Source: Marchantia polymorpha subsp. ruderalis
Lineage: Eukaryota; Streptophyta; Marchantiopsida; Marchantiales; Marchantiaceae
Assembly: GCA_037833965.1 (NCBI GenBank)
Contig: AP031352.1
Span: 13,372,501 to 13,436,500, forward strand
Reading direction: 5' to 3'
Length of the DNA: 64,000 nucleotides
The notes below the pieces were generated by a model. The model made no database searches and was not told where the DNA came from. It worked only from the letters and a program-made list of their open reading frames with translations. Below, one piece after another: positions 1,445-49,202 of the stretch; the first letter of the stretch is position 1; every line of letters begins with the position of its first letter. The translations under genes and the position numbers were made by a program.

Positions 1445-1662
1445 AGTCTCATAGATCCATGATGCGCTACCTCAAAGCCATCAGAGGTAAACCTCAGTGA
1501 GAGTCAGCCCGGAGGTTGCAGTACGGCTATGGCTTAGAGTCTTAGTAAAGTTCTCATTGTTCCCGTGGACGTAGCCTCAATGTAGGTGAACCACGTTATC
1601 TCTTGGTGTCGACTTCTCTCGTGCGTGTATGTCTCACTGTGTATGCCTTCTATGTTTGACAG

Positions 1663-4619
1663 ACCCGGCATACGGATAGAGTTGGCTAGTGATACGCCAA
1701 TCTTCCGTTGTCCCAATCGATATAGTGATATGGAAAGGGACTTGATTTGGAGTCGGACGTTGGAATTATTGGAGGCTGGGTTAGTGGAGTTATCGCATGA
1801 TGAGTATGCTTCAGCCAGTGTTATGCCGGCAAAGAAGGAAGTACATGACAACTACACGGATAGACGCATGTGTGAAGACTACCGTCCTATCAATAAGACA
1901 AAGGCCGATAAGTATGCCATGCCTACACCTAAGGAGATCTTTGATGTGATGGGACATGCAAGGATTTTTTAGTACTTTGGATCTTCGGGCAGGATACCAT
2001 CAGTTGCCGATTCGGGAGGAGGACAAGGGCAAGATAGCGTTTTGGGTGTCAACTCCCACGGCAAGGAATGTTTGTATCAGTGGCGATTCTTATCCTTTGG
2101 GTTGAAGAATGCACCTGCCGAGTTCCAGAGAGTGATGGACATGATTCTAGCGGGGCTAGATTTTGTCAGATGTTATATTGATGATATCTTGGTGTTTAGC
2201 GACACGGTGGAGCAACACCAGATACATTTCCAGATTGTGCTTGAGCGGTTGAGGGCTCATGGTTTGCGGTTACATCCTGGAAAGTGTAGGTTCTTCCAGG
2301 AGAAGGTGGAGTACTTAGATAATGTGATCTACCCAAGTGGTTTGCGAGTTTCGCAAGCAAAGGTTGAGGCTATTGTGCGCATTTCTCGTCGAGCGGATGT
2401 GAGTAGAGTTTGTGCATTCATGGGTTTGGCAAACTATTACCGGAGGTATGTGAAGGAATTCAGTGCTATAACAAAACCTTTAAACCATTTGCTGAAGTCG
2501 AATGAGGAGTGGCAATGGGGAGATGAGCAGGAGAGAGCTTTTGTTGAGCTCAAGGCCAGGTTGGTGGCCGCTCCCATCTTGAGGAGATCTATAAGATGTC
2601 ATCCATATCAGTTGCACACTGATTGGAGTATGTTGGGACTTGAAGCGGTGTTGACGTAGTGTGATGATGAGGGCAAGGAGTTTGTGGTTGCGTACGCTAG
2701 TCGTTCGAACAATGCAGCAGAGTCGCGGTATAGTTTGTACGAGGGAGAGTGTTTGGCAGCGGTGTGGGCTGTGGCACACTTCAGGTGTTACTTGTTTGGT
2801 ACGCAGTTTACCCTTGTTACCAATCATCAACCGCTCAAGTGGTTGATGAAGTCCGACAAGCTCAAAGGGAAGCTTGCACAGTAGGTTTTCGTCTTACAGG
2901 AGTACGACTTTCAGGTGCTGCATAGGCCTGGAGTTGCGAACTTGGATGCTGACGGTTTGAGCGGGAACCCATGCACTAGCCAAGAGGATGACACTTGAGC
3001 TAGATGGCATGGTGAGGTAGATGAGGAGATGCTGCCCGATTGGCATGCATCTGCCTTCATGTGTTGGTTACATGGGGCCTCTAGTAGGGAAGACCACTTG
3101 ACATCTTACTCTAGTTAGAGAGTAGATAGTCAATCTTTGGAAATTGAGGTGGAGGATGGTGGTGTGGATCAGCGTGATTTTCACGATGATGCCTTGGTGT
3201 TGGAGTTCCTACGGATCAATATGGTGCCAGGTAGATTGAGTGCCAAGGAGCAAGATCGTGTTCTCCAACGGGCGAAGAGATACTGATTGGAGGGATCACA
3301 TGTTCTCCGAGTGTGGGAAGACGGTAGGGTACGAGTAGTACCCCATCCATCTCAGAGAACACGCATTGTGAGACATGCTCATGAGGAGTTGGGACATTTT
3401 GGAGTGAAGCGTACGTACAGCTTACTCCTTTGTCAGTATTGGTGGCGTGGTATGCATACACAGGTACAACAGTTGGTATCACGTTGCATGGTTTTTGATC
3501 TAGTGAGGGCATCGTTCAATGCCCCGACACCAGAGTCACATCCCTTACGTATCATGGGATTGGATTACTGTTGGAGTTTAGACTTTGCTGGACCACTACC
3601 TTTGATTGCACAACATCATAGGTATGTGTTGGTGATGATGAAGCATTTCTCCAAGTGGATTGAGTTGGTGGCATTACCTGACAAGGCGAGTGAGGGAGTA
3701 GCATATGTTTTTCTTGACAGGATGCTTAGTCACTTTGGTGCACCAGTTGAGGTGTTGACCAATTAGGGGACAGAGTTCCAGGGTGAGTTTTAGATCTTGT
3801 GTGACAAGACGTTGATTGATCACCGGACTACTTCCCTAGATCATCCAGAGGCGGATGGTTTGGCTTAGCGGGTTGTACAGACGGTGAAGAGAGCGTTGCG
3901 CAAGTATGGCCTACAGAAGGGGCATCTTGGGGACTGGGATATTCAGTTACCATGGCTGGCCATAAGATATCAATTCAGTCGTCAAGCATCCTTGGCTTTG
4001 TTTTCACCATATTTTCTATTGTACGGCCGAGATCCAGATTTGCCATGAGCAATTCATCGTGAGTCTAGCGAGGTGGTGAACCTTGATGATCCAGATATGT
4101 GAGTGAGAGTGTGTTCTCAACGTGGAGCGCTCTTTCAGAGAGTTATGCTTGCAGCATTTGAGAACCTTGTGATTGCTCAGCACAGGGATACATTGCGGTA
4201 TGCAACCATCAGGGGAGGAGGTTATCGACCATCGATTCGTAGGTTTCGTGTGGAAGACTACATCTATTTACAGCAGACTGCACCGACTACGTTGGATGTG
4301 ACGGCAGGATGCACTATCTTGCGAGTGCGAGAGGTGTTACCTTCTGGAGTTCTCATGTTAGAGGGTCGTGAGGTGTTGTTTGGAAGGATCATGTGCGCAA
4401 CTATGCGCCATGCCACCTCTCAAACCTTGATGGTACTATGGTTCCAAGCTTGGCGATTGTGCGTGCCGGCTTGATGTGCATGTTATGTGGGTCAACTAAT
4501 CAGGCGGCCTATATGTTGGTGTGTGATAGATGTTCTAGGGGATGACACATGTCGTGCTTGACTCCACCTATCGATGTTGTTCCTACTGGACGGTGGGTTT
4601 GTCCTCGATGTACTTCATA
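1663..4619 (+). pseudogene. Dead Ty3/gypsy pol (RT-RNaseH-IN-PHD)
   Basis: This is a decayed copy of the pol module that is intact at 43516-46644, homologous from position 43684 onward. Recognisable pieces are the RT core with YIDDILVF (about 2177-2200), RNase H (YEGECLAAVWA), the integrase zinc region and catalytic core, and a C-terminal PHD finger ending CPRCTS. It is broken by many nonsense changes, for example a TAG at 2657-2659 and a tryptophan-to-TGA change in the PHD finger near 4542, and by frameshifts such as the one near 1970. It lacks gag, protease and methyltransferase, because its 5' part is replaced by the copia-like LTR region at 1663. Confidence 0.92.
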
Positions 4620-4790
4620 GGGTAGATGACTTGATCTTCACATGTTATGAATTGCAGATAGGCGACTAACAATGGGGCGACATAGCACCTGGCCTACTGG
4701 TTCGCGCACCCATGAAGGTGCATAGCATGTAGTTGTAGATAGAGCTACCTGGGAGTTAGAGGAACCTGACCGCCAGCTAGGGGGGCGAGT

Positions 4791-5172
4791 TGTGATACCT
4801 TTGTGTGTGGACACTCTTGTTCCTTGTGTATGTATGTATGAGTTGTGAGTAGAGCATGTCAGCGATGTGTGATGTATGATGATATCGAGTCGCACGACAG
4901 CTGTCATGTGTATGCACGTTAGTGCAGTTGCAGATTGACGCTAGATTTGAGTTTGAGTCGGAAACACGTTGGGCCGTGGCAGACGGTCCAGGAACGTTGG
5001 GTTGGGTTGATGTTTCACGAAGCATATATTCGAGTTGAACTCGAAGAATTGTCAATTCTTCGAGTTGAGCCTTAGGCGTCGGATTCTTCCCATTAGCTTC
5101 GACTCTTATTCTACCTCAGGGTAGTGAGTTTGGCTCGACTCTGTCCCTTTTGTGTTTTGTTATGATCTTAGT
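4791..5172 (+). repeat. LTR of the dead gypsy copy
   Basis: It starts TGTGATACC directly after a polypurine tract (CTAGGGGGGCGAG, 4777-4789), the normal 3' LTR position. It runs about 382 bp to where a second LTR start appears. It is homologous to 46816-47169 but diverged. It contains a 10-bp palindrome GACAGCTGTC at 4896-4905 and a hairpin at 5040-5064 with arms CTCGAAGAAT and ATTCTTCGAG. Confidence 0.75.
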
Positions 5173-24444: not shown

Positions 24445-24810
24445 TGGGAGTGGCTAGTTATACCTCACTTTGGGCTACTTAGCCCTCACCCTAGTACAAT
24501 ATATGGTCGTCTAGGATTGATCCAAAGTTATAAGTGTCAGTGTGTTAAGTTTATGGCTCTTCTAACATGGCTGGACTCCTCGCACGCCACTATACCCACT
24601 GTTGTGTACTGCCCACACCTCTGCTGGTCCTCCTGTTGGTCTGCTCTGATCTGACGTAATGCTTGCGACTGCCGCTGGCTTGAATGTTGATTGCAATGAT
24701 ATCAAAATGAAAAGCTCAAGTCCAAATTCTTACATGAAATTCTGTTCATAAGATTCGAGATGATAATCTGGATAAATTACGACCATGACGCTATGCTTGC
24801 CACACTTACC
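24445..24810 (+). mobile_element. Inverted-repeat element, left end only
   Basis: It begins GAGTGGCTAGTTATACC and matches 48211-48540 over most of its length with scattered differences, both sharing TTAGCCCTCACCCTAGTAC and ATGCTTGCGACT. The 48-kb copy carries this sequence as a terminal inverted repeat. Here no matching right end was found, so the copy is truncated. Confidence 0.7.
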
Positions 24811-33967: not shown

Positions 33968-35620
33968 TGAAACACATGCAAGAAACACCTCTAGTTTGGG
34001 AGCGGAACAGAAGAGCGAAGGAGGAGGAGAAAGTTGAAGTTTCCTGTCACGATTTCTCAACTTCTTCCATTTATCCAGTTTTTGACAGACTACCCTTTGG
34101 AAACGGAAGTGGCTTGAATCTCTCAATTTCAAGCTATTGGAGTTTTATCAAAGGGTTCTTCAAGCATAGATTGTTCGTCGATATTCCCCAAACACTAGAG
34201 GTGACATCCATGTCCAGACAACTTGTACAGACGATCGTTGGCAGCAAAAGATGCTTTGTATTCACGATTTGAGTTGAGAATGGTGAAAGAATTCATTTTT
34301 CGAGTCTTGCATAACGCAAAGGCTTTAAGGTTCCAATGAAGGCTGTGATGTTGTACCATCAAACTTTGCCTTCTTTCTTGTATCATAGGTTAGGATAGTG
34401 TCATCTCTATAGCGAAGAAGAACGGAAGTAACGAAAGAGGACAGAATTGATTTGTTACTTATGAGACAGGACGCATTATTCTTCATATTACGATTCCACT
34501 GTGATGATATTCTTCTTAAAGTTTAAAGCAAGTTTGAACCTACATGTCCTTCTGATTAATGCTTGAAAAACCTACGAAATCAGCTTGGACTTTACCGTGG
34601 AATATCAGGATTGCTAATAGATCTGGAGAGTAGGGAAAAAAACATTCATGATAACGTACCCTTCTGTATATGTGGACCGGATCATGTTGCGACGCTTTCC
34701 TGAAGACTACTCAGGATGCGTCGCGTATCAGATTTTGTGGGAAGAAAGAGAGCAGGTTCAGGAAGAAGAAGAGTTATGTGCAGCAATTGCATCTCATGAT
34801 AAAGGCATATGGTTCAGATGCCGAATTATGTAGAGGAGCCGTGTTCGATAGTACTTTCGTAAGAAAAAGAAATTGAAAAAGTTTAAAGAGTGGCTTGTGA
34901 AGAATGTAAGCATGAACATCTCGTTCAGAACGAAATAGAGTATCAACTAGAATCGTCATTCTTTGCAGTCTTTCGTAGCTGGATTTGGACTATCATCCTG
35001 ATCACCATCCTGAACAAGACCCCTATTAACTAGTCAGATTACAGTGTCACCATCATACAAGTATCATCTACTGAGAGGAAGAATGAACAATTAATCATCT
35101 TGATCAAAAAGCTAGAAAGAAGACCTCGGGCCAAGTCAGATTAAGTGGTGTGGCAGGTGAATAAATAACTATTGCAGGTTGATAGCACAACAGATGCTAT
35201 CATTTCATATTAAAGCATATTTCAAAGTAAATATTATCTTTCAAATATCTTCAATCGGCAATTGAAGCTATTTTCAGCCTACAAAACTCACTTTTTTGAT
35301 GATAGATGATAACCCTTGGAGTGGTTATACTATAGCAAACATATCAATATGATTTCTCTTATAAATATGTGTGGTTTCTAAAATTGTAGCAAAATTTGAT
35401 TATCTAAAAGACTCAAAAGAGCAGATTCACATTAATGTATGTATTAATGTATCAAATTTAGTTGTCTTTCTCCTAACTTTAAAAAATAAGAAAAATCCCG
35501 GTGGCCTAGGTATCAAAGGTTATATGTTTCAGATTGATTTTTGAGAAAGAAATTGTTGGTGAACAATCATGATGCACCCATTGTTGGACTAAAGCAATAA
35601 TATCTACCTAAACAAGTTAA
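33968..35620. other. Intergenic, nothing recognised
   Basis: No gene is supported. A short acidic open frame near 34650-34830 (REQVQEEEELCAAIASHDKG) has no recognised relative and is probably a chance frame. Confidence 0.5.
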
Positions 35621-35859
35621 AGCTGTCATGTAGTTACGAGTCGGCTCACGAAGTTCAGACACTTACTATATTTAGCCGTAAAGTTAGGGTTCCGGTCACG
35701 AGGGGTATAGAGTCGGGGACGGCTCGAAGAACGTCAGTTCTTCGAGTCGAGCCTGGAAGCGTTGGGAGCGTAGAGTGACTTTCCCCTTTGCGTCGACCTG
35801 GATTCTCCGAGTGTGGAGTGGGTTGGGCTTGACTCATGTTTGTGACGGTGACGGTTTGT
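35621..35859 (+). repeat. 5' LTR, truncated
   Basis: Identical to 46931-47169. It starts inside the GACAGCTGTC palindrome of the LTR, so the first 115 bp present in the 3' LTR are missing. It keeps a TATA-like ACTATATTTAG at 35666-35676 and the hairpin at 35723-35746. Confidence 0.85.
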
Positions 35860-36255
35860 TGCCAGTAGGGTAATTGACCGACGGGAATTCCAGTGGAGAA
35901 TTCCCGTACATTTCACTCGAAGAACTGCGGTGAGGGTCCTGCAGTGCGGGATCACGAGAAAGTTTGTTAATTTGTTACGTTTCTGTGTGTTCCGTCGCGT
36001 GTGTGAGTTGGTGAGTTCGGGTATGTTCGGGCCTGAGTTACTTCCTGGATCTGACGGGAGGTAAATTGTGCGACATAGAGGGGGTGAATGTATCGAGGAA
36101 TTTCGGTCTTCTGCGTCGAGCACTGAAGATCAGTGTGCTACCTGTTTCTCACTGATCAAGTCCTCGATCACTAGGTCATTGAGGATGTGGATGTCGAGAG
36201 TGTGATATCGACGATTGCACTCTTAACTTGGTTGCCAGGGTTTATATCATACAAA

Positions 36256-37705
36256 TTAGAAAGCTGAGGAGGTGTTGGCAGCGAACGTCCACGACGGGGG
36301 AGGAGTGGAAAGGACTGGGAGTGGGAGGAGCATTAGCATCGACGACGAAACAGGAAGCGGAGGCAGGAGGCGATGTTGCTGTGATGGTGCTGGTGCCGCC
36401 AAATAAGAACCACTACTGTCGTAGCGCATCGGTGTTGCTGCAGCTCGTGCAGTCGGAGAATCCCATAGCGTAAGAAATAAGTAGCTGGAACGAAGGAACA
36501 AACGAAGAGGAGAGGAATTTCTCCTCGTCATGATGGTGATTGCGGTGGCGCTCGAGGTGCTTTTGCTACCGTAGTGGATGCGTATGGTATGTATCAGTGC
36601 TCTGTTCCGGACGAATACGTCGGCCAAAGGAGGAGGCGGAGACTCGGGACTGTTGTTGTTGGACTGTGGATGGTGTGACAGAAGACGTTCTTTTCGTAGA
36701 GGAGGACGAGGACGAGCGAGGTTTGGCCTTCTTAGGGTTTGCGGTGGAGGAGGAGGAGGAGCAGAACTGCCGAAAGGATCCTCATCTTGCCGGGCAGAAC
36801 CTGGACCTGTAGCGCTGAAGGCCCCTCGCGGATCAAAGTCATCGAACTCCTCTTCATCTTGCTTGGTTGCAAAGTAAGAACCTCCAGAAGAACCTCCGGC
36901 TTGTAACTTGCGCTCACCATTTTGACTAGCAGTGGCTGACGCTTGAGGCTGACTCACCTGTGTCTGACTAGTTTGAGCTTTAGCTACTGATGCGGCGAGG
37001 CCACTAGCGTCCCGCTCTTCGCCCGGGTATTCTGGTGGATCACCCCGATCGGCTCTGTTGCCTCCTCCAACCCTGGCAGGATAGCGATCTTCTTCTTCGT
37101 AGTTCCTCTCGCGATCTTTATCATAACCTGAGGCCGAACCTTCATCCCCATACCTGTCGTTATAACCTCGATCTCCACCTTTGCCTCCGTAACTTCTGTC
37201 ATCCTCAATTCGATCTCGATCACCACCATACTTGTCGTCTCTGTAACGGTCCCCATTAGTATCTTTTCCGGACCGATCGTCATCCCTGTATCGATCATCT
37301 CTGTCCCTTTCCCTATCCCTGTTTCCTGCATACCTACCATCTTCATCTCTTCCACCAGATCGACTGCTCGCGCCATAACGATCCTCATCTTCTCGATCAC
37401 CGTAGCCTCCATCCGTACTGGAATACTTGCTAGACTTGGATCTGAACACTGTACCCGAACCTCGATACTTGTCCCTGTTGGAGGCTGCTTTGTTTCGCAC
37501 TTCGCATATTTTTTCCTTGTCGTTTAATAGGCCCACGAGAGTTTGGGCTTTCTTCCTGACATTAATACCCTGATCCTTTTCCCCAGCCTCCAGATATTGA
37601 AAGTCCACCAAGGTCTGAACTTGATAGGCATGTTCTTGGAGTTCATCTATGATTCGCTCAGCTCCATTGGCAACCAGAAATTCCAACACAGTCAAAGCCT
37701 TGTAA
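36256..37705 (-). pseudogene. Epsin (ENTH-domain) gene fragment, antisense to the retroelement
   Basis: The frame reads the second half of a plant ENTH domain: [20 protein letters not shown], then [20 protein letters not shown] and [18 protein letters not shown] proteins bind phosphoinositides and clathrin in vesicle budding. After it comes a long arginine/aspartate/glycine-rich linker ([15 protein letters not shown]) and the plant epsin motif [12 protein letters not shown]. Beyond about 36780 the frame drifts into proline- and serine-rich sequence that no longer looks conserved, probably after a frameshift. The first half of ENTH is absent: upstream of 37705 the homology ends in degenerate sequence with no clean splice acceptor. 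The ENTH part is uninterrupted by introns. It lies between the 5' LTR and gag, in the opposite direction. Confidence 0.75.
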
Positions 37706-38364
37706 ACATTACCTCAGTTTTGTAGACGGATTCTTTATCTTCTTCGGGAAGTGAATACCCTGTGTGAACTGTCCTCCGGATCTTGTCTACCCACACCTGA
37801 TCTCTTTATCCAATCTGTTTTTTTTAGAAAAACTAAGTCAAAGTTTGATGTCCTGTGAGGACTACATACACTAAGCCCCTTTCCATCAGTCGCCGGAATA
37901 AGCTATTTGTGCAACTCTTTAGCGGATAAAGTATTTATCACAGCAAGTGATTATTTGAGAAGAAATTGCCCTAGTCGGCTTGTGTCATACAGCAGGACCC
38001 ACAGGTCCGTCGAAATTTGGCAGTTTCATTTGAAGCACTCAAAGGCTTAGTGGTGAGCAGTGAACGCTTTAAAAATTATTCGGTACATGTTGGAGGAAGC
38101 ATGCCACCAAATTCCAGTACTGTTCTAGTAGTGAGGTTGGATCGGTGTCGTTTAAGGCTTTAGTTTCAGTTTCAGTATGGGGTCCTTTGAAGGTTGTATC
38201 AGAATGTGATGTCAATTTAGCAGTAGAAGGGAGTGGAAGGTACGAGACAAAAGGGATTTATCAAGCTATCTTAGTATCCGGCACCTGGTACTAGAACTTT
38301 CCACTGTTCGTCTGCCGCATGCACAAGATTCCAGCGACGTGAAGTGTTGACGCGTGAAGAAGAA

Positions 38365-38724
38365 ATGCCGCTTGAAGGAAAAGCAGACGACAGTAATATA
38401 CAAGAAATCCAGACAGTGGAGTTCGTCAGCACCGAGGAACGTGATCAGGAGCAGGAGGGGACAGTGCAGCCTCAAGTAGAAGGGAATCTGAAAAACACTG
38501 TTGTGGTAGAAGAAAAAGATTCCGGGTTAGATTGGGACGAGGCACTAGTCGTGGAAAAACTTCTAGAGGAATCCGGCCTAGAGTACAGGGTATGTGAGGA
38601 TGAGTTACTAGACCTTCCGCAGGATATTGCTGACCATTTGAGAGATGTTCAGTATGTTCAAGACTGTCTTTCAAAAGAAATTCTTGTACTAGAGAAATTT
38701 CTCGATAATCTTCCAAAGGATTGA
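38365..38724 (+). CDS. Small acidic protein, unrecognised
   Basis: A 119-residue open frame with ATG at 38365, rich in Glu and Asp (QEIQTVEFVSTEERDQEQEG, later LDWDEALVVEKLLEESGLEY). The C-terminal half could form a helix. It lies between the epsin fragment and gag, inside the retroelement boundaries. It may be a host exon carried with the epsin fragment, an accessory frame of the element, or a chance ORF. I do not recognise it. AATATATATATGACG and an AT-rich tail follow at about 38825. Confidence 0.4.
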   Translation: MPLEGKADDSNIQEIQTVEFVSTEERDQEQEGTVQPQVEGNLKNTVVVEEKDSGLDWDEALVVEKLLEESGLEYRVCEDELLDLPQDIADHLRDVQYVQDCLSKEILVLEKFLDNLPKD

Positions 38725-39624
38725 TAGCAACTACCTGTAGCGTTTAGACAAAAGGTACTGAAGGGATCGGGAGTTTGCACCCGGTCTCACTACCTGTAAA
38801 CATAATGTTTTGAAAGCATTGTAAATATATATATGACGTAGTCAATATATTGAGCTTTCATGGTGTAGTGTGTTTGTTGAGGGGCAGTGTGACCCCTGTG
38901 TGAAGGAGAAGAAAAAGAAAGAAGAAAAAAAAAGAAAAAAAAAAGAAGAAGTTTTCGAACAATTTTTGTTTGGATTTGGAGGAAGAGGGCATCATAGGCA
39001 CTGGAGGCCCACGTAAATGGAGGGCGATGGAGATCGAATCGGGATCGCGAAGCGATGCGATGTCCCGTGTGTGTTGTCTTGTTTTGTGCTGTGTTTCCTT
39101 TAGACTGGAGAGTCGTTGCTAGCTGGTTGCTTGTGTTTGGATCCTCTCCAGTCTTGCTTCCTGGTGCGCGCCCGTGTAGGGGTGACGCTGATTTCCGGAG
39201 TTGTTTTACTCCTGTGTGCTGGCGATAGGGGGCTGGACTTGATCACCGGCCGGTCTATCTATGTTTCTCTCACGGTGAGACTGGAGTGATGACCAGTAGA
39301 CCGTGAGAGTCTTCTTGCTGTGATGACAGGTTAGGTTGCCCATACACCTTAGCTAGTAGGGCTAGAGTAGCTAAGTGCAGCACGGCATCAGAGGCGGATT
39401 GGGTTATTGGGTGGAGATCTGGCAGTGGTGCCAGTTGAAGTCTCGCCATCACGGAGCAGTCTAGTGGTCCTGTTGAGGACCGCGGGGGATTTACGCGGAG
39501 TGGGTTGAGGTATCGGCTACCTTCACCTATTTCGCCAGTTGTTGCGGAGCAGGACCAGAGTGTTGCAGACAGAGAGTCTTTGGTGGTGATATCGTCTAGT
39601 GTCCCCACCCCATTGATTTGGGAC
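38725..39624 (+). other. Retroelement leader before gag
   Basis: It holds a purine tract of about 50 nt at 38904-38953 (GAAGGAGAAGAAAAAGAAAG and on). The rest is GC-richer sequence typical of the element. The gag frame is open from 39439 but has no ATG until 39625. Confidence 0.5.
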
Positions 39625-42081
39625 ATGGACGGGATGTACGGGGCCGCAAAAGGACCTCGACGTTACTCTGGTGCAGTGGGCACCATCAAGCTTGATGATT
39701 TTATTCAGGAGTTCGACACGTGGTGTGATATGCAGTTTCTGCGTAACCCCACGTTGTTTACACCCTTCTTTGCATGGAAGGGATTATTCCAGCATTTGGA
39801 GGGGCCTCCCATGGACGATTATCATGAGTTTGGGAGAGAGTATGCTGTAGAGATTGATGCATGGAGACGGCATTGGTCTCCGAACTACTCATCCATTACC
39901 CAGGGTGGTGTGGGTACCAGTGGAGCTGCGAGTATCGGCATCAGTGGAGGTGCGAGTAGTAGCATCAGCGAGGGTACCAGTGGAGCAGTTGGCGCAACTG
40001 GTACTAGTACCAGCAGCGGTACTGTTAGCATTGCCGGTGGCAGCACAAGGGGAGATGCTGGTGGCGTACCTTCGTTTAGCCCCATTCCTGAGTTCTTCCA
40101 GAGATTGAGGAAGAATTATCAAGGGGTGAAAACGGAGAAGTTGAGGAGCCTCCAGGATTTTGAGCGGAAGACTGGTGAGAGTCTTCGTGAGGCATACACT
40201 CGTATGCGACGGCTCATCTCAGTTACTCACGGTGTGACTGAGGCACAGGCTGTCCAGTACTGGTATCGGATCCTTGACAGAGAGTTGCGGAGGAGAGTGC
40301 GTGATGCTACTCTCATGAGCGACTCATCACCCACATTAGCCCATGTGTTTGCTCTTTCTGAGAAGATTGAGCTTAACATGGTGGAGGAGAGGGTGGTGAC
40401 GTCTACATTTGCGAGGGACACGACCACTACCTCGCGTATCCCACATAGCCCAGCACAGTCTCGCCCCATAAGTGGGAGTCGTGGAGGTCATACACGACAT
40501 CCTTCAGGTCACAGAGAGCCTAGTGCGCGGCCACCACTGCCTTCATTTTCGGGTCAGCCACAGGGACCGTCATGTTGGACATGCGGAGGTAGCCATATGA
40601 GGAAGGATTGTCCCCAGGAGCGAGAGGGACAAACTCCACAAGCTAGGCCACAGCCGGCACAGGTGACCTGTGATCATTGTCATCGACCGGGTCACCCTCG
40701 AGAGCGTTGCTTTGACCTTCATCCGGAGTTGAGATCTGGAGGTAGAGGTCGTGGAGGTGATGCTCCGCGAGGCCGAGGTGGTCGAGGTGGCAGAGGTGGT
40801 AGAGGTGGTAGAGGTACCGGGGCCATTGAGCGTACCGCAGCGAGTGCTACTTCTGCCACAGAGAGCGCTATGGCTGCTCGGATTGAGCAGTTGGAGCAGA
40901 GGCTTGCTGCTATGGCCGGTCTGGGGGCGAGCACTTCCACATCTTACGAGGGAGAGGATTTCTCCTATTTGGCCAGTGCAGCACAGGTTGAGGCATCAGT
41001 TGCAGTGACCAGAGGTGGTGCTCGCACTTCAGAGCCACGTGGTGCGACTGTGGAGTTGGATCCTCAGAGGGGTGAGGGTGGACGTCAGTCTAGACTTCCC
41101 CAGTCCTTTTTGTTGTCAGAGGTGGGTAGCAGTTCATCTATGAGACCTGCACCGCCTAGTGACACTAGAGTGAGAACTGAGGTTCTTACATCATCTGTGG
41201 TGGACGCAGACGTGCCATCTAGTGCAGTGATGCGGATGGCCACTTCAGTCTTGCGATCTCCATTGTTCTCAGCCACGGAGTTGATAGACTCTGGTATTGA
41301 TTTGGCTCGAGTATTTCGGGTAGCAGCCACGTCGTGTGAGCGTGGGAGAGTCGCTGCTACTAGTGCCGAGATAAGTGATTATACAGTTGAGGACCCATCC
41401 TCAACGTCTACATTGTTCGAGGAGACGACTTGGCAGGCCGCAGCGGCGAGGATGGAGTCCTTACCAGCTCGCCCAGCCATTGATCGCGAGAGTATTGTCC
41501 CTGGTGTATGTATGGTGGACAACCGAAGTGGTCTATTTCGGTTAGTGAGTTCTACTGGACAGGTGTATGTCCCAGCCAGAGTTTTGTTGGATTCTGGTGC
41601 ACAGCCCTTGATGTTGGGCAAGGCTGCATGCATTAGTTTGGGCATTCGGAGGTCCGAGTTGGAACCTTGCCCATTCCAGATCCAGACATCCCTTGGTGGT
41701 GCCAGCAATAGGTCTTACTTTATGACCAGGGAGAGCATAGCGGTGCAGTTGAGGCATGATCACCCTCATGATAGCTCGCAGTTTGGAGTTCGTGCTGTGG
41801 TTACATCAGCAGAGTCATATGATGTGCTTGTTGGTGGAGTGGTGTTATACCCGATGGGCTTCCGGATGGACTATTGGACGGAGACTGCCGCATATCGTCC
41901 TGGTTGGCAGTCCGGAGATGGACGTTTGAGCGAGCTGCCAGTGAGATTTATTTCTCGGGATCGACCTCTTGGATCTTCGTCAGCGGTCTTGGCATCTGTA
42001 GCAGGTTTTAGCGGAGTGCTTACCTGGCCCGATGACTTGTTGGAGGGGAACATGTCTGCCGACGATACCTCAGTCTACTAG
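39625..42081 (+). CDS. gag-PR: Retroelement Gag with aspartic protease
   Basis: This is an 818-residue polyprotein. The N-terminal third is a retrotransposon Gag (FIQEFDTWCDMQFL, then FERKTGESLREAYTRMRRL), which assembles the particle. Two zinc knuckles follow at about residues 317-329 (CWTCGGSHMRKDC, CX2CX3HX4C) and 349-362 (CDHCHRPGHPRERC, CX2CX4HX4C), then an arginine-glycine box (RGRGGRGGRGGRGGRG) that should bind RNA. A retropepsin-like protease has its catalytic motif LLDSGAQ with Asp near residue 656. A glycine/serine/threonine-rich low-complexity insert lies at about residues 90-145. The start is the first ATG; the frame is open upstream to 39439 but without ATG. It ends at TAG 42079-42081, and the same frame continues into the methyltransferase. 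Confidence 0.9.
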   Translation: MDGMYGAAKGPRRYSGAVGTIKLDDFIQEFDTWCDMQFLRNPTLFTPFFAWKGLFQHLEGPPMDDYHEFGREYAVEIDAWRRHWSPNYSSITQGGVGTSGAASIGISGGASSSISEGTSGAVGATGTSTSSGTVSIAGGSTRGDAGGVPSFSPIPEFFQRLRKNYQGVKTEKLRSLQDFERKTGESLREAYTRMRRLISVTHGVTEAQAVQYWYRILDRELRRRVRDATLMSDSSPTLAHVFALSEKIELNMVEERVVTSTFARDTTTTSRIPHSPAQSRPISGSRGGHTRHPSGHREPSARPPLPSFSGQPQGPSCWTCGGSHMRKDCPQEREGQTPQARPQPAQVTCDHCHRPGHPRERCFDLHPELRSGGRGRGGDAPRGRGGRGGRGGRGGRGTGAIERTAASATSATESAMAARIEQLEQRLAAMAGLGASTSTSYEGEDFSYLASAAQVEASVAVTRGGARTSEPRGATVELDPQRGEGGRQSRLPQSFLLSEVGSSSSMRPAPPSDTRVRTEVLTSSVVDADVPSSAVMRMATSVLRSPLFSATELIDSGIDLARVFRVAATSCERGRVAATSAEISDYTVEDPSSTSTLFEETTWQAAAARMESLPARPAIDRESIVPGVCMVDNRSGLFRLVSSTGQVYVPARVLLDSGAQPLMLGKAACISLGIRRSELEPCPFQIQTSLGGASNRSYFMTRESIAVQLRHDHPHDSSQFGVRAVVTSAESYDVLVGGVVLYPMGFRMDYWTETAAYRPGWQSGDGRLSELPVRFISRDRPLGSSSAVLASVAGFSGVLTWPDDLLEGNMSADDTSVY

Positions 42082-42084
42082 GAT
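42079..42084 (+). promoter_or_regulatory. In-frame amber 1, candidate readthrough site
   Basis: TAG GAT separates Gag-protease from the methyltransferase in the same frame. The context (TAC TAG GAT GTG) is not the tobamovirus type. Readthrough is inferred because the next segment has no AUG ahead of its first catalytic motif. Confidence 0.6.
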
Positions 42085-43515
42085 GTGGAGGAGGTTGTGA
42101 GTTTCACAGCGGCGGTGACTTCACCCTTAGATGTTCCACTGTGGAGTTCGTGCCAGGCACTACAGTTGGAAGCTGATAGGTTGGTAAAAAAGGCTTGGAG
42201 TGAAGCCTCTTTACCAGCAGAGCTAGAGAGGGCTTCAGCTGATCGGCTAGTTGGTGGTTTTAGCGCATTGTCTCCATTGGTTACTACACCTATTGCATGG
42301 GAGTATTCCTCAGAGGGCGTTTGTTTGCTGGATCTTTTTGGTGGGATCAGCACCGGTTTGGCTGCGGTGTTGCAGTCAGGTATTCCCGTACGAAGATACT
42401 TGTATGTGGAGAAGGACGAGACTGCACGTCGAGTCTCTTCACGACATGTTGCACAGTTGATGCGGCGTTTTCCTTCGTTGTTGCCGCGATCAGCTGTCCG
42501 AGGATTCCAGAAGGCGTTGCCTTCAGACATTTCGTTGCTGGGGGCGCCAGACCTTGACCGCGTTGGCCATATTGATATGGTGATTGCGGGTTGGCCATGT
42601 CAGGGACACACACGCGCTGGACATGGGACAGGGTTGCATGATCCCAGATCTCGGATGTTTTGGGAGATGATGCGAGTGTTACGTCATCTCCAAGTGCAGC
42701 AGACATGTTCTCCAGCATACATTCTGGAGAACGTACCATTGTTGGGTGACACTCGGGCCCAGTTGATGGCGAGTGTCCATCAAGTCCGAGCATGGATTGG
42801 ATCAGCAGTACTGTTGGATGCTGCGAGGGTTGGATCACGAGCGCATCGTGCACGTTTGTGGTGGACCAACCTTTTGCCACGTGAGATATTGCGTCATGCC
42901 TATGATTCGGTGAAGCGTGATACTACACTCACCGTTGACAGTATCTTGGATGTTTCCCGGCACTCTCAAGTAGTGAGAGTTGCTGACAGGTCACCTATGG
43001 CATTGGTGAACCGCGTAGGTCAGCCTCGGATGGCTTTACCTACATTTGTCAGTTATCCGGCATCACATGCATATCGTGATGGGGGACCTGGACTACTGTG
43101 GGACAGTACCCTACATCAGTTGGTGAAGCCCAACGCTGATGAGAGAGAGCGTGCGATGGGGTTTCTTACTGGTGTGACCGCGGCTTCTTCAGTTTCAGAG
43201 GCGTCGCGTCGTCAGGTTTTGGGTCAGGCTATGGACCTGAACTGCTTGACGTGGATTGTGAGCTTGGGTTTGGCCGAGCAACGCCGTTTGCGCGCAGATT
43301 TGGTGGTTGTTACACCACTTATTAGCTCATTGCCTACCGGGACAGTAGTGGCAATGGCTGGGGGCGACAGGAGAGATATTCGGCATCCTTGGAGTTTATG
43401 GGACGTGACGAAAGGACTTGCCAGAGTTGCAGCCCATGCAGTTGGAGAGGATTCTCACGTGGAGGTGGCTACGAAGCAGGGTACGGAGAACCCTTCTTTG
43501 CAGTGTGTAGCGTAG
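42082..43515 (+). CDS. C5 cytosine-DNA methyltransferase module of the retroelement
   Basis: About 477 residues with the full set of cytosine-5 methyltransferase motifs in canonical order (residues counted from 42085). Motif I is LLDLFGGISTG (81-91, S-adenosylmethionine binding) and motif II is YVEKDE. Motif IV is GWPCQGHTRAGHG with the catalytic Cys 172. Motif VI is LENVP (Glu 215). Motif VIII is SRAHRARLWWTN. A target-recognition stretch lies at about 265-345, and motifs IX/X are ERERAMGF, then VLGQAMDLNC. HRAR in motif VIII recalls DNMT3-type enzymes, and the order is not permuted as in plant DRM. The segment has no ATG before motif I, so it must be made by amber readthrough, a non-AUG start or splicing. 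All key residues are present, so activity is plausible. The product would be a Gag-protease-methyltransferase fusion that the protease may cut. Confidence 0.93.
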   Translation, partial: DVEEVVSFTAAVTSPLDVPLWSSCQALQLEADRLVKKAWSEASLPAELERASADRLVGGFSALSPLVTTPIAWEYSSEGVCLLDLFGGISTGLAAVLQSGIPVRRYLYVEKDETARRVSSRHVAQLMRRFPSLLPRSAVRGFQKALPSDISLLGAPDLDRVGHIDMVIAGWPCQGHTRAGHGTGLHDPRSRMFWEMMRVLRHLQVQQTCSPAYILENVPLLGDTRAQLMASVHQVRAWIGSAVLLDAARVGSRAHRARLWWTNLLPREILRHAYDSVKRDTTLTVDSILDVSRHSQVVRVADRSPMALVNRVGQPRMALPTFVSYPASHAYRDGGPGLLWDSTLHQLVKPNADERERAMGFLTGVTAASSVSEASRRQVLGQAMDLNCLTWIVSLGLAEQRRLRADLVVVTPLISSLPTGTVVAMAGGDRRDIRHPWSLWDVTKGLARVAAHAVGEDSHVEVATKQGTENPSLQCVA

Positions 43516-43521
43516 CAACCA
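43513..43521 (+). promoter_or_regulatory. In-frame amber 2 in UAG-CAA-CCA context
   Basis: TAG CAA CCA matches the UAG-CAR-YYA consensus known to promote stop-codon readthrough in plants. It sits exactly between methyltransferase and pol, which share one frame. Confidence 0.75.
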
Positions 43522-46500
43522 TTGACAGTGTCGCCTCCCTCTAGTGTGCCTATGGAGGAGGAATGGGAGCCATTGATTGGTTCCCAGATCACAGGAGGAG
43601 AGAGGCGACGATTGACACAATTCCTACGAGACTATAGGAGTTGTTTTGCTTTCAGTATGAAGGAGTTGGGTGCGTTGATTGGACCCGGTATACGGATAGA
43701 ATTGGCTAGTGATACGCCAATCTTCCGTCGTCCTTATCGATACAGTGAGATGGAGAGAGATTTGATTCGGAGTAGGACGTTGGACCTACTGGAGGCTGGA
43801 CTAGTGGAGTTATCGCATGGTGAGTATGCGTCAGCCACTGTCATGCCGGTGAAGAAGGATGTACATGGCAACTACACGGATAGGCGCATGTGTGGAGACT
43901 ACCGTCCTATCAATCGGCAGACGAAGTCCGATAAGTATGCCATGCCTACACCTGAGGAGATCTTCGATGTGGTGGGACATGCGAGGATTTTTAGTACTTT
44001 GGATCTTCGGGCAGAATACCATCAGTTGCCAATTCGGGAGGAGGACAAAACCAAGACAGCGTTTTGGGGCGTCAACTCCCACGGCAAGGATTGTTTGTAT
44101 CAGTGGCGATTCTTACCCTTTGGGTTGAAGAATGCACCTGCCGAGTTTCAGAGGGTTATGGGCAGAATCCTGGCGGGGCTGGATTTTGTCAGATGTTACA
44201 TTGATGATATCTTGGTGTTTAGTGACACTGTGGAGCAACACCAGATACACTTGCAGATTGTGTTTGAGCGATTGAGGGCTCATGGTTTGAAGTTACATCC
44301 TGGGAAGTGTAAGTTCTTCCAGGAGAAGGTTGAGTACTTGGGTCATGTGATATACCCAGGTGGTTTAGGAGTTCAGCAAGCAAAGGTGGAGGCTATTGCA
44401 CGCATCCCTCGTCCCACGGATGTGAGTAGAGTTCGTGCATTTATGGGTTTAGCGAACTACTACCGGAGGTATGTGAAGGGGTTCAGTGCTATAGCCAAGC
44501 CTTTGAACCAGTTGCTGAAGTCAGATCAGGAGTGGCAATGGGGAGATGAGCAGGAGAGAGCTTTTGTTGAGCTCAAGGCCAGGTTGGTGGCCGCTCCCAT
44601 CTTGAGAAGACCTATTAGAGGTCGTCCATACCAATTGCACACTGATTGGAGTATGTTGGGACTTGGAGCGGTGTTGACGCAGCGTGATGATGAGGGCAAG
44701 GAGTTTGTGGTTGCGTACGCTAGCCGTTCGAACAATGCAGCGGAGTCGCGGTATAGTTCGTACGAGGGAGAGTGCTTGGCAGCGGTGTGGGCTGTGGCGC
44801 ACTTCAGGTGTTACTTGTTTGGTACGCAGTTCACCCTTGTTACTGATCATCAACCGCTCAAGTGGTTGATGGAGTCCGACAAGCTTACAGGGAAGCTTGC
44901 ACGTTGGGCTCTCATCTTACAGGAGTACGACTTTCAGGTGGTGCATAGATCTGGAGTTGCGAACCTAGATGCCGATGGTTTGAGTCGAAACCCATGCACT
45001 AGCCAGGAGGATGACACTGGAGCTAGATGGCATGGTGAGGTTGACGAGGAGATGGTGCCTGGTTGGCATGCATCTGCCTTCATGTGTTGGTTACGTGGGA
45101 ACTCCAGCAGAGAGGATCATCTGACATCTTACTCTAGTCAGAGAGTAGATGGTCGATCTCTAGATCCTGAGGTTGAGGATGGTGGTGTGGATCAGCGTGA
45201 TGTACACGATGATGCATTGGTGTTGGAGTTCCTACGGACCAGCATGGTGCCAGGCACAGTGGGTGCCAAGGAGCGAGATCGTGTTCTCCAACGGGCCAAG
45301 AGGTACCGATTGGAGGGATCACATGTTCTCCGAGTATGGGAGGACGGTAGGGTACGAGTAGTACCACATCCAGCCCAGAGAGCACGCATTGTGAGGCATG
45401 CTCATGAGGAGTTGGGACATTTTGGAGTGAAGCGTACATACAGCTTACTCCTTGGTCAGTATTGGTGGCGTGGTATGCATACTCAGGTACAGCAGTTGGT
45501 ATCACGTTGCATGGTTTGTGATCGAGTGAGGGCATCATTCAATGCCCCGACACCAGTGTTACATCCATTACCCATCATGGGGTTGGGTTACCGTTGGAGT
45601 TTGGACTTTGCTGGACCACTACCTTTGACTGTACGACATCATCGGTATGTGTTGGTGATGGTGGAGCATTTCTCCAAGTGGATTGAGTTGGTGGCATTAC
45701 CTGACAAGGCAAGTGAGGGAGTAGCGTATGCTTTTCTTGACAGAGTGCTTAGTCACTATGGTGCACCAGCTGAGGTGTTGACCGATCAGGGAACGGAGTT
45801 TCAGGGTGAGTTTCAGGTCTTGTGCGACAAGGCACTGATTGATCATCGGACCACGTCGCGAGATCATCCAGAGGCGGATGGTTTAGCTGAACGTGTTGTA
45901 CAGACGGTGAAGAGGGCGTTGCGCAAGTATGGCCTGCAGAAAGGTCATCTTGGGGACTGGGATATCCAGTTACCGTGGTTGGCCATGGGATATCGGTTCA
46001 GTCGGCAGGCATCCTTGGCTTCCTTCTCACCATATTTTCTATTGTACGGCCGAGATCCAGACTTGCCAACATCGATTCGTCGTGAGTCTAGCGAGGTGGT
46101 GAACCTTGATGACCCGAATATGTGGGTGAGAGTATGTTCTCAACGTGCAGAGCTCTTTCGAAGAGTTATGCCTGCAGCGTTTGAGAATCTTGCGATTGCT
46201 CAACATAGAGATACGTTGCGGTATGCAACCATTCGGGGAGGAGGTTATCGACCATCAATTCGTAGATTCCATGTGGGAGACTACGTCTATCTACAGCAGA
46301 CTGCACCGACAACATTGGATGTGACGGCGGGACGCACAATCTTGCGGGTGCGGGAGGTGTTACCTTCTGGAGTTCTCCTGTTGGAGGGTCGTGACGGCGT
46401 TGTTTGGAAGGATCATGTGCGCAATTGTGCGCCATGCCACCTCCCAAACGTAGATGGCACTATGGACCCAAGCTTAGCGATAGTACGTGCTAGCTTGAGG

Positions 46501-46644
46501 TGCATGCTGTGTGGGTCGGCTGGTCAGGCGGCCCGTATGTTGGTGTGTGATAGGTGCTCTAGGGGATGGCACATGTCGTGCCTAACTCCGCCTATCGATG
46601 TTATTCCGGCTGGACGATGGGTTTGTCCTCGATGTACTTCATAG
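43516..46644 (+). CDS. pol: Retroelement Pol: RT, RNase H, integrase and PHD finger
   Basis: About 1042 residues after the second amber; an internal ATG exists at 43552. Reverse transcriptase has the catalytic YIDD at 44197-44208 and WRFLPFGLKNAPAEF before it. RNase H shows its acidic residues in LHTDWSMLG, YEGECLAAVWA, VTDHQPLKW and NLDADGLSR. Integrase has an HHCC zinc region (HEELGHFGVKRTYS, then SRCMVCDRVR) and the DDE core (LDFAGPL, VLTDQGTEFQ, DHPEADGLAERVV). A beta-rich C-terminal region (GDYVYLQQTAPTTLDV) follows. The end, about 46499-46641, is a PHD finger with Cys4-His-Cys3 spacing (CMLCGSAGQAARMLVCDRC, then WHMSC and CPRC). No chromodomain is seen. The frame is intact and every catalytic residue I can check is present. 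Confidence 0.95.
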   Translation, partial: QPLTVSPPSSVPMEEEWEPLIGSQITGGERRRLTQFLRDYRSCFAFSMKELGALIGPGIRIELASDTPIFRRPYRYSEMERDLIRSRTLDLLEAGLVELSHGEYASATVMPVKKDVHGNYTDRRMCGDYRPINRQTKSDKYAMPTPEEIFDVVGHARIFSTLDLRAEYHQLPIREEDKTKTAFWGVNSHGKDCLYQWRFLPFGLKNAPAEFQRVMGRILAGLDFVRCYIDDILVFSDTVEQHQIHLQIVFERLRAHGLKLHPGKCKFFQEKVEYLGHVIYPGGLGVQQAKVEAIARIPRPTDVSRVRAFMGLANYYRRYVKGFSAIAKPLNQLLKSDQEWQWGDEQERAFVELKARLVAAPILRRPIRGRPYQLHTDWSMLGLGAVLTQRDDEGKEFVVAYASRSNNAAESRYSSYEGECLAAVWAVAHFRCYLFGTQFTLVTDHQPLKWLMESDKLTGKLARWALILQEYDFQVVHRSGVANLDADGLSRNPCTSQEDDTGARWHGEVDEEMVPGWHASAFMCWLRGNSSREDHLTSYSSQRVDGRSLDPEVEDGGVDQRDVHDDALVLEFLRTSMVPGTVGAKERDRVLQRAKRYRLEGSHVLRVWEDGRVRVVPHPAQRARIVRHAHEELGHFGVKRTYSLLLGQYWWRGMHTQVQQLVSRCMVCDRVRASFNAPTPVLHPLPIMGLGYRWSLDFAGPLPLTVRHHRYVLVMVEHFSKWIELVALPDKASEGVAYAFLDRVLSHYGAPAEVLTDQGTEFQGEFQVLCDKALIDHRTTSRDHPEADGLAERVVQTVKRALRKYGLQKGHLGDWDIQLPWLAMGYRFSRQASLASFSPYFLLYGRDPDLPTSIRRESSEVVNLDDPNMWVRVCSQRAELFRRVMPAAFENLAIAQHRDTLRYATIRGGGYRPSIRRFHVGDYVYLQQTAPTTLDVTAGRTILRVREVLPSGVLLLEGRDGVVWKDHVRNCAPCHLPNVDGTMDPSLAIVRASLRCMLCGSAGQAARMLVCDRCSRGWHMSCLTPPIDVIPAGRWVCPRCTS

Positions 46645-46800
46645 GGGTAGATGACTTGATCTTCACATGTTATGAATTGCAGATAGGCGACTAACGATGG
46701 GGCGACATAGCACCCGGCCTACTGGTTCGCGCACCCACGAAGGTGTATAGCATGTAGTTGTAGATGGGGCTACCTGGGAGTCAGAGGGACCTGACCGCCA

Positions 46801-46814
46801 GCTAGGGGGGCGAG
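46801..46814 (+). other. Polypurine tract
   Basis: GCTAGGGGGGCGAG lies two bases before the TGTGAC start of the 3' LTR and would prime plus-strand DNA synthesis. The same tract precedes the LTR of the dead copy at 4777-4789. Confidence 0.8.
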
Positions 46815-46815
46815 T

Positions 46816-47169
46816 TGTGACATTTGAGTGTGTACTCTCTCGCGCCTTATATGTGTGTATGTGTGTGCGTATGTGTATGTGAGTAGCATGTCAGCGATGT
46901 AGAGTGTATGACGATATGTATTCGCACGACAGCTGTCATGTAGTTACGAGTCGGCTCACGAAGTTCAGACACTTACTATATTTAGCCGTAAAGTTAGGGT
47001 TCCGGTCACGAGGGGTATAGAGTCGGGGACGGCTCGAAGAACGTCAGTTCTTCGAGTCGAGCCTGGAAGCGTTGGGAGCGTAGAGTGACTTTCCCCTTTG
47101 CGTCGACCTGGATTCTCCGAGTGTGGAGTGGGTTGGGCTTGACTCATGTTTGTGACGGTGACGGTTTGT
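46816..47169 (+). repeat. 3' LTR
   Basis: About 354 bp starting TGTGACATTTGAG. It contains the palindrome GACAGCTGTC at 46928-46937, a TATA-like ACTATATTTAG at 46976-46986 and a hairpin at 47033-47056 (arms CTCGAAGAAC and GTTCTTCGAG). The last 239 bp equal the 5' repeat exactly. It does not end in CA, so the exact right end carries a few bases of doubt. Confidence 0.82.
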
Positions 47170-48189
47170 AAGCTCAGTTGCATTGTATAAAAATGAAAAG
47201 CTCAAAAGATGATAATAGAGATAGTTGTTTAGCTTGGAGCTAGATTCCAACACTCTACTTTCATGAGTTTGGAGTCATGGTATTTGATGATACTTGAAAT
47301 ATTTGAACATGAATGTTTTGGCTAGTTGTCCACAATTGAGATCTACAGTGTTATTTATGTAGTAAACTATAAGTTGTCAAAATACGTCTTTTGAATTTGT
47401 TTGATTAGTCCAATCATATTTTTTGTGCATTTTGTCCATACGTATCTCTCTCGGGAGATGGATTGCGAGACTAATAGACAAAGACTGACAAACAGCAGAA
47501 GCATTCAACGGTGGGAAACACACAAGAGCTGCTCGAAGTACTTCTGTCTGGTGGCATAATTCGTCTTGCCGGCGACCACAGTTTTGCTGTGTTGTAGCAA
47601 CATGGATACATTTGTAGGTGCACGCAGAAGCCCGAGGGTGTTGTGAAAGTGCGTGCCTTTCCAACAGACCAAATGTTTTGATCCTTGCCTTGCTTAATTG
47701 ACCAACCTGGCACCCCAAATGCCAACAAACAAACCAATACAATGGTGGCAAATCTCGACCAAGAGAAGCAATACAGGTAGCCATAAAAGTGAGTTTCACA
47801 CACGAGCACTGCATGCGTGCCCCGCTCACTCTCTGAAAGAATCCGTTCGGCTATATCCGAATCTGAATGTGATAATCACCGTTCGGCTCATGCAAGCTGC
47901 TTGGCTTTTACTTTTCTGCGTGTACTAGTTTCCTAAAATCTGCAAGTGCACTCAGACAGCACGAGCTCGAGTCACAAACAAACGAGTCTCGAGTGGCCTG
48001 CTGTGGGCAGAATTTCTGATGCAAACGGACGATGAAGCCAGAGCAAGAGTAGGATAAATGTGGTTATCTCATAGTCGACACATGTTCACATAACCAAGGT
48101 GCATTGACTACAGGTTAAGCGCTGTACTGCTGAACGGTAACACCGTTACGACGGTCATCGTATGCCGTCGACCCCCGAACATACGATCG
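47170..48189. other. Intergenic, nothing recognised
   Basis: Right flank of the retroelement. A 150-codon minus-strand frame at 47377-47829 shows no family resemblance and overlaps others; I treat it as chance. Confidence 0.5.
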
Positions 48190-49202
48190 GGGTTGTTCTA
48201 GCCTGCAGTCTAATTAGCCCTCACCCTAGTACAATATACGGTCGTCCAGGATTGATCCAAAGTTATAAGTGTCAGTGTGTTAAGTTTATGGCTCTTCTAA
48301 CATGGTTGGCCTCCTCGCAAGCCACTATACACACTTCGTGTATTGCCTGCACCTCGGCTGGTCCTCCTATTGATCTGATCCAATCTGACCTAATGCTTGC
48401 GACTTCCGCTGGCTTGAATGTTGATTGCAATGATATCAAAATGGAAAGCTCAAGTCCAAATTCTTACATGAATTTCTATTCATAAGACTCGAGATGATAA
48501 TCTGGATAAATTACGAGCATGACGCTATGCTTGCCACAAATTACCAACTGATACACAATTCATATTAGATCGCATAGATAATCAGATTCATCATAATGTT
48601 ATAAGCGGGAGAACTTTCACATTAGACCGGCTGATGCAAGCCCAAACCCGATGGCGAGGACCCGATGATGGCCATGCATGATTTGCATTTGATGATAATC
48701 TCGACATAATGGAACAGACTCAAGGGTTGACTAATGTGGAGGTGCGTGAACATGATGAGCGAGAATTGAATCGGATCAAGATTCCAACAATTAGCAAGAA
48801 TCCAGCTTTGGATCAGGTGGTATTATGCTTCTGGCGTGAATGGATTAGCGGCCTCCACAGCAGCATTACGATGAAACATTGGGTGCACCAAATCGTCATC
48901 TACAACGAGAGCCGTAATCATGCATGTGAGTGCGCTATGTCTTTCCTCTTCTAGTTTTCGACTTCAACCGAGGTCATGGAAAGAAACAACCTCTGCAAGC
49001 ATTGGGTCAGATGAGACTAGCAAAGGTGTGGGCTGGTTGCGGGCAATCCACAACAGCGGTTACAATGGCTTGCAAGAAGGCCAGCCATGTTAGATAAGAC
49101 ATAAACTTAACCCATTGACACCTATAACTTTAGACCAATCCTGGTCCAAAGTATACTAAGGTGAAGGCTAATTAGCCCAAAGTATGGAATAACTAGCCAC
49201 TC
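48190..49202. mobile_element. Non-autonomous DNA element with ~150-bp inverted repeats
   Basis: The left arm, about 48211-48361, and the right arm, about 49029-49175 in reverse, match over about 150 bp with scattered changes (both contain AAGTTATA and TTAAGTTTATG). The right end reads GAGTGGCTAGTTAT in reverse, as at 24445. The interior has a short unrecognised open frame at 48709-48954 and no transposase domain that I can name. The outer left end is degenerate, and target duplications were not defined. Confidence 0.65.

Follow-up and report, generated by a model that had tools for sequence, protein, structure and literature searches.

A 64,000-nt stretch of Marchantia polymorpha subsp. ruderalis DNA (contig AP031352.1, positions 13,372,501 to 13,436,500, forward strand; hereafter the window) contains a Ty3/gypsy-type retrotransposon, at 35624-47169, that carries a DNMT3-type C5 cytosine DNA methyltransferase (MTase) between its protease and its reverse transcriptase (RT). 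Three consecutive open reading frames (ORFs) follow one another in a single frame, at 39439-42081, 42082-43515 and 43516-46644. The first of the two stop codons that divide them is, as read from alignment, a nonsense codon that this copy alone has of all the sequences compared. The second stands at the same junction and in the same readthrough-type context in another complete element, L012 (CADCWO010000201.1), and looks programmed, so that the MTase would probably be made at the dose of Gag and Pol by readthrough. The coding features of the element are as follows.

39439..42081, + strand: Gag-aspartic protease ORF, with CCHC knuckles and the protease motif LLDSGAQPLMLG read directly
42079..42081, + strand: first TAG, absent from the relatives compared
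42082..43515, + strand: DNMT3-type C5 cytosine MTase ORF segment, 477 aa between stops (Pfam, PDB profile search, fold and motifs)
42307-43305, + strand: MTase core domain, residues 76-408 of that segment
42598-42600, + strand: catalytic Cys173 of the MTase, in motif IV
43513..43521, + strand: second stop, TAG-CAA-CCA, in the type I readthrough context UAG-CAR-YYA (TAG-CAA-TCA at 3489-3497 of L012)
43521..43621, + strand: RNA structure predicted to be stable, immediately 3' of the second stop (z -3.54; 0/200 shuffles as stable)
43516..46644, + strand: Pol ORF with RT (residues 121-279), RNase H (342-471), integrase H2C2 (619-673) and integrase core (692-785), from Pfam
46501..46635, + strand: PHD finger at the C-terminus of Pol (PF00628, E 9.4e-11)

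The methyltransferase is of the DNMT3 type

An earlier reading of this DNA, made from sequence only, had claimed a gypsy element with its own C5 MTase, and the Pfam scan agrees: the ORF at 42082-43515 matches PF00145 DNA_methylase (E 3.8e-10, 40.1 bits against a cut-off of 22), between the Gag/protease ORF and that for RT, RNase H and integrase. The motifs could all be placed, in the canonical order that had been claimed: I, FGGISTG (residues 86-92); II (108-112); IV, AGWPCQ (169-174); VI, ENV (216-218); VIII, RAHRARLWWTN (253-263); IX, DERERAMGF (353-361); and X, LGQAMDLN (380-387). With 121 homologues at E<=1e-3 among 7993 candidates scored, the finding is not due to chance.

In a PDB profile search, DNMT3A scored 91.6 bits and DNMT3B 83.0, followed by 4onj (50.4; labelled merely 'DNA methyltransferase' there, and presumably a DRM), DRM2 (36.3), DNMT2 (35.4) and M.HhaI (32.4). 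DNMT3A/B are the nearest solved relatives both by sequence and by predicted fold. Judged from its sequence, the domain is a complete, unpermuted DNMT3-type MTase. Its unpermuted order, with motif I ahead of IV, IX and X, rules out DRM ancestry, and the earlier preference for a DNMT3-type over a DRM-type ancestor is borne out by this order together with the scores and the fold. We disfavor a recent origin from bacteria or phages, since DNMT3 clearly outscores the bacterial MTases in the same search. A scan of viral contigs with the single MTase protein found no relative; a scan with the MTase alignment gave 11 loci, each with at most 163 query residues matched at 31-43% identity.

Relatives occupy two slots in the polyprotein

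The window MTase is 95% identical over 306 columns to MARPO_0008s0049 (P0125) of Marchantia polymorpha, which supports the land-plant lineage proposed from sequence. By our own count, 32 of the 120 matches listed carry bryophyte names (Marchantia 23, Calypogeia 4, Sphagnum 4, Riccia 1), some of them spanning merely a small part of the query. A further search (50 matches) added five more Marchantia proteins and three Closterium (Zygnematophyceae) proteins, along with one whose label, Chrzof1, we read as Chromochloris zofingiensis (Chlorophyceae). Klebsormidium and dinoflagellate names were absent among the matches listed in the homologue searches. Most rows are metagenome sequences.

L012 is a complete relative of 9285 bp, whose MTase is 48% identical to that of the window and whose ends overlap by 127 nt, which indicates a circular assembly. 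It was the one relative among five loci in a scan of genome contigs, the other four being Streptomyces records. Further copies of the arrangement exist, bryophyte Gag-protease-MTase homologues among them, a point that the sequence-only reading had proposed to check. The many homologues that join protease and MTase in one protein, along with the circularly assembled L012, rule out an assembly artefact, and with it the join at the MTase segment that had been considered as a refutation. L012 is filed in GTDB under a Synechococcales metagenome-assembled genome, and P0038 under Obscuribacterales, though L012 is a plant- or alga-type retroelement; both filings probably reflect binning contamination.

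Domains were mapped in 187 proteins (185 matches plus two L012 ORFs), and the MTase (MT) was seen alone in 85 of them. In slot A it lies between protease (PR) and RT: 31 rows are PR-MT, 11 GAG-PR-MT, 9 MT-RT, 4 MT-RT-RH (RH, RNase H) and 1 PR-MT-RT-RH, among others. The named hosts of this slot, with the MTase after the protease, include liverworts, Sphagnum and Closterium. Slot B places the MTase between RNase H and integrase (INT); 16 rows have the full RT-RH-MT-INT-PHD order in one protein.

Tree candidates were 188 proteins (the 185 matches, the two L012 ORFs and the window MTase) and six ORFs (L001, L003, L008, L014, L015 and L016). One hundred rows passed a filter of 85% of the profile, none of the six ORFs among them, and the tree of 105 rows comprises these 100, four of the six ORFs and a DNMT3A fragment added by hand. 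A single branch (99/97; 100% of 200 bootstrap trees) separates the 30 slot-B rows from all others, whereas slot A is not set apart in this way and needs two changes on the tree. The Chrzof1 protein groups with the slot-B rows; the slot that it occupies itself was judged by eye, from what follows the MTase. Long branches (the DNMT3A fragment, bacteria, P0117 and P0146) leave the rooting and the placement of Closterium unsure. Four bacterial or viral rows stand apart; because these were chosen by hand and the DNMT3A fragment is unplaced, the tree is no proof of an origin from DNMT3.

The catalytic residues are near-invariant in the 100-row alignment, the Cys being present in 96 of the 97 rows that have a residue there. 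Between the window element and L012, identity is 48% in the MTase core and 24% and 22% in its flanks, compared with 29% in Gag, 43% in the protease, 69% in RT, 81% in the integrase core and 55% in the PHD finger. The contrast between core and flanks, together with the retained Cys, suggests purifying selection on the MTase. In P0131, P0136, P0140, P0141, P0144 and P0145, which come from Closterium, Chrzof1 and some metagenome copies, motif IV has WECQ in place of WPCQ; the Cys is kept and the usual Pro replaced.

A private nonsense codon and a candidate readthrough stop

The first TAG, with GAT after it, breaks into a stretch whose sequence is LYEDVEEVV in MARPO_0008s0049 and VYEEVEEMV or similar in P0123, P0124, P0130 and P0137. 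The codon itself is Glu in all five of these Marchantia proteins and Ala in P0002 of Calypogeia. In relatives the MTase belongs to the Gag-protease ORF, and a separate MTase ORF by design is ruled out by the sense codon that they have at this position. Because the nonsense codon precedes the MTase, the window copy should make no normal Gag-MTase or Gag-Pol. The sequence-only reading, sound on anatomy, host, copies and DNMT3 type, erred in calling the element otherwise intact: besides this codon, its leader holds an antisense ENTH gene fragment (see below). It also missed the nature of the two stops, the PHD finger on Pol and the spread of the family past a single lineage.

The second stop has the context UAG-CAR-YYA, given as the type I (tobamovirus-type) readthrough motif in the accessible parts of PMC3542737 and PMC2194720. 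The L012 ORF for Gag, protease and MTase also terminates in this context, with Pol-PHD next and in frame. By arithmetic, CARYYA covers 8 of 4096 hexamers. Over a length of 120 nt from the stop onward, which was our choice, the predicted fold has a z score of -3.54 in the window and -3.96 in L012, and none of 200 shuffles was as stable in either case; folds equally extreme appear in 2 of 119 segments along the ORFs of the window element and in 1 of 109 along those of L012.

The L012 clade has eight rows in the tree (L012, P0041, P0043, P0049, P0180, P0181, P0182 and P0184), and each of them ends in AL(S/A)ATK. Proteins also end 72-78 aa past the MTase domain in P0002 and P0029 (Calypogeia), P0064 (Sphagnum), P0078 and P0107 (Marchantia), and P0005, P0008, P0027, P0009 and P0122; in P0004, of the window's clade, the end comes 56 aa past the domain. 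In this second set, what was read is the end of the protein and not the codon. Tails of unfused ORFs range from 0 to 190 aa past the domain and many are probably contig or gene-model ends, so only shared C-termini were read as a shared stop.

The nonamer UAG-CAR-YYA is not rare by itself, occurring 6 times in the window against 3.63 expected and twice in L012 against 0.33, so the weight rests on the same junction bearing it in two elements. The MTase runs stop-free into RT in 14 of the 187 proteins, five of them bryophyte gene models, and the leaky stop would therefore be a trait of some sublineages or have been lost in others.

Element boundaries and other features of the window

35624..35859, + strand: 5' long terminal repeat (LTR), 236 nt, TGTCA...GGTTTGT, inside a 239-nt repeat, with boundaries set from the flanking AAGC
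46934..47169, + strand: 3' LTR, inside the 239-nt repeat identical to the 5' copy
35620..35623, no strand: target-site duplication AAGC, 5' copy (5 nt counting the T at 35624), read directly
47170..47173, no strand: target-site duplication AAGC, 3' copy, read directly
36259..37713, - strand: ENTH (epsin-like) gene fragment, antisense, in the 5' leader between the 5' LTR and gag (PF01417, E 1.7e-20)

Identical LTR segments had been noted from sequence, and the direct repeats at 35621-35859 and 46931-47169 indeed agree at 239 of 239 nt; judged by this identity, the window copy inserted recently. The outer flanks are both AAGC (or AAGCT) when the LTR start is taken as TGTCA. This start is independently backed, since a relic match at 1662-4909 ends 7 nt into the LTR and the ACGACAGC-TGTCA junction is also found in L012. 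Identical direct LTRs with a target-site duplication, and the Pfam order RT-RNase H-integrase in Pol, place the element in Ty3/gypsy. By eye, we recognized neither a classical tRNA primer site after the 5' LTR nor a polypurine tract before the 3' LTR. The window element and L012 have GACAGC^TGTC at the 3' LTR start in common, and the palindrome GACAGCTGTC spans that start in both (46928-46937 in the window, 7051-7060 in L012), where a polypurine tract is expected.

The Retrotrans_gag match of the first ORF is weak (E 0.031, below the cut-off), and the alignment to Marchantia P0123 begins at the Met codon at 39625. Asp_protease_2 was matched in L012 (E 7.8e-4) and P0180 (E 1.2e-4), both under the Pfam cut-off. 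After the integrase, the Pfam scan gave no chromodomain at E<=0.1; the PHD finger is there instead, and the solved PHDs that score best against it include CHD4, KMT2D, PHF12, DPF2/3, PHF21A and KDM5B. The ENTH fragment, for which we noticed no counterpart by eye in the L012 leader, represents either the capture of a host gene or an insertion of greater age.

Elsewhere in the window, 1662..4909 (+ strand) is a decayed second copy of the part from Pol to the LTR start of a related element, 88.8% identical over 3265 columns to 43682-46941; it is truncated before RT and does not include the MTase part. No MTase match was found outside 35-48 kb of the window. A 452-nt stretch occurs as a tandem pair (547-998 and 994-1445, 99.8% identical), and a 340-nt repeat is dispersed at 24475-24814 and 48210-48549 (92% identical), the second about 1 kb past the 3' LTR, with inverted partners at 49038-49202. 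A 479-aa ORF at 7686-9125 (+) looks, by eye, like a plant gene of the F-box type.

Discussion

A gypsy element with a DNMT3, KnitGypsy-Dnmt3, is known in Klebsormidium nitens (de Mendoza et al. 2018, PMC5890265). According to the accessible text of that paper, its MTase has a Ka/Ks below 0.2 and showed no activity in yeast, a result that the authors call inconclusive, and the DIRS-type enzyme (SymbioDIRS-Dnmt3) performed de novo CG methylation there, which is the nearest function in print. As described, KnitGypsy-Dnmt3 resembles the window element in its gypsy polyprotein, unpermuted DNMT3-type MTase and streptophyte host, but its MTase lies within the Pol ORF and its repeats have a DIRS-like layout. 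By contrast, the window element has the MTase in the Gag-protease ORF ahead of a readthrough-context stop, direct LTRs and a C-terminal PHD finger. SymbioDIRS-Dnmt3 and SymbioLINE-Dnmt are likewise retroelements with DNMTs, but they are DIRS and LINE elements of dinoflagellates, called unrelated to gypsy in the same text. Chromoviruses share a gypsy Pol that ends in a domain of the chromatin-reader type, theirs being a chromodomain after the integrase, whereas the window element has a PHD finger, no chromodomain found, and an MTase. Tobamoviruses share the stop context, and the accessible literature lists soybean SIRE1 among elements with an in-frame stop dividing gag from pol or pol from env; unlike in these, the stop in the window divides Gag-protease-MTase from Pol.

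The accessible main text of PMC5890265 mentions neither Marchantia, PHD, readthrough nor Gag, and the accessible passages of PMC6317226 mention neither methyltransferase, PHD nor Marchantia. A limited library that lacks most subscription journals and bioRxiv yielded no other title or abstract on the bryophyte, Closterium or Chromochloris cases, and nothing on members in land plants or chlorophytes, on the leaky stop, on the PHD finger or on the second slot; such cases may be in print elsewhere. The element is of a known but little-studied kind, whose expression layout, reader domain and host range we did not find described.

Taken together, these observations lead us to favor, as somewhat probable with all its parts included, a model in which the element is a liverwort member of a group of DNMT3-bearing gypsy elements whose named hosts are green plants. 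In an undamaged copy, the first ORF would encode Gag, protease and MTase and end at a leaky UAG-CAR-YYA. Every Gag made would then carry the MTase, and RT, RNase H, integrase and PHD would be made only when a ribosome reads through. The MTase may be packaged with Gag into the particle, and we favor a function in which it would methylate the double-stranded cDNA of its own element de novo, before integration. Where integration takes place, the PHD finger would bind the tail of histone H3 and guide the process, as a substitute for the chromovirus chromodomain. We propose only tentatively, as a larger claim that may well fail, that these elements are an old writer-reader retroelement lineage of green plants, with an MTase at Gag dose in every particle, cDNA arriving CG-methylated and a PHD reader on the integrase, kept in two slots across chlorophytes and streptophytes including land plants.

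The MTase could instead act mainly after integration, methylating the inserted copy and nearby chromatin and thereby holding the element in check and making it less costly to its host. The Pol-terminal PHD could hold such a complex on chromatin, and the accessible text of PMC5890265 discusses slower retrotransposition as a benefit to the host; however, the stop in this branch sets the MTase, which lies with Gag, apart from the integrase, which points to a role in the particle, and we regard this account as possible though rather unlikely. We also think it unlikely, to a slightly greater degree, that the second stop is not read through, with Pol coming from spliced or internally initiated RNA or the two-ORF copies being dead. 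The bryophyte gene models P0026, P0053, P0058, P0068 and P0120, which join MTase and RT, fit that explanation, but two elements with 48%-identical MTases share the stop codon, its CAR-YYA context and the frame, eight ORFs share one end, and the downstream fold is strong at both loci.

A passenger status of the MTase, in which a host DNMT3 was captured, joined to the polyprotein and retained by chance with a structural role or none, would agree with the nonsense codon of the window copy and with the parts of the domain missing from several Marchantia gene models. We find it quite improbable given a core better conserved than its flanks, the near-invariant catalytic residues and retention in two slots in hosts from chlorophytes to bryophytes. 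DNMT2-like methylation of RNA, whether genomic RNA or primer tRNA, was raised for the Symbiodinium LINE enzyme in the accessible text of PMC5890265, but DNMT2 chains score far under DNMT3 here (best 35.4 against 91.6 bits), and we give it very little credence.

DNMT-bearing transposons are said, in the accessible text of PMC6338049, to be absent from land plants, such as tracheophytes. Related copies occur in bryophytes, Marchantia polymorpha included, and for bryophytes this absence does not hold. Marchantia polymorpha is a genetically tractable model plant, and the question of what a transposon gains from an enzyme of the very kind that serves in its silencing becomes testable. An MTase on the Gag side, before a leaky stop, makes for a sharp prediction: the enzyme should be found in particles at capsid dose.
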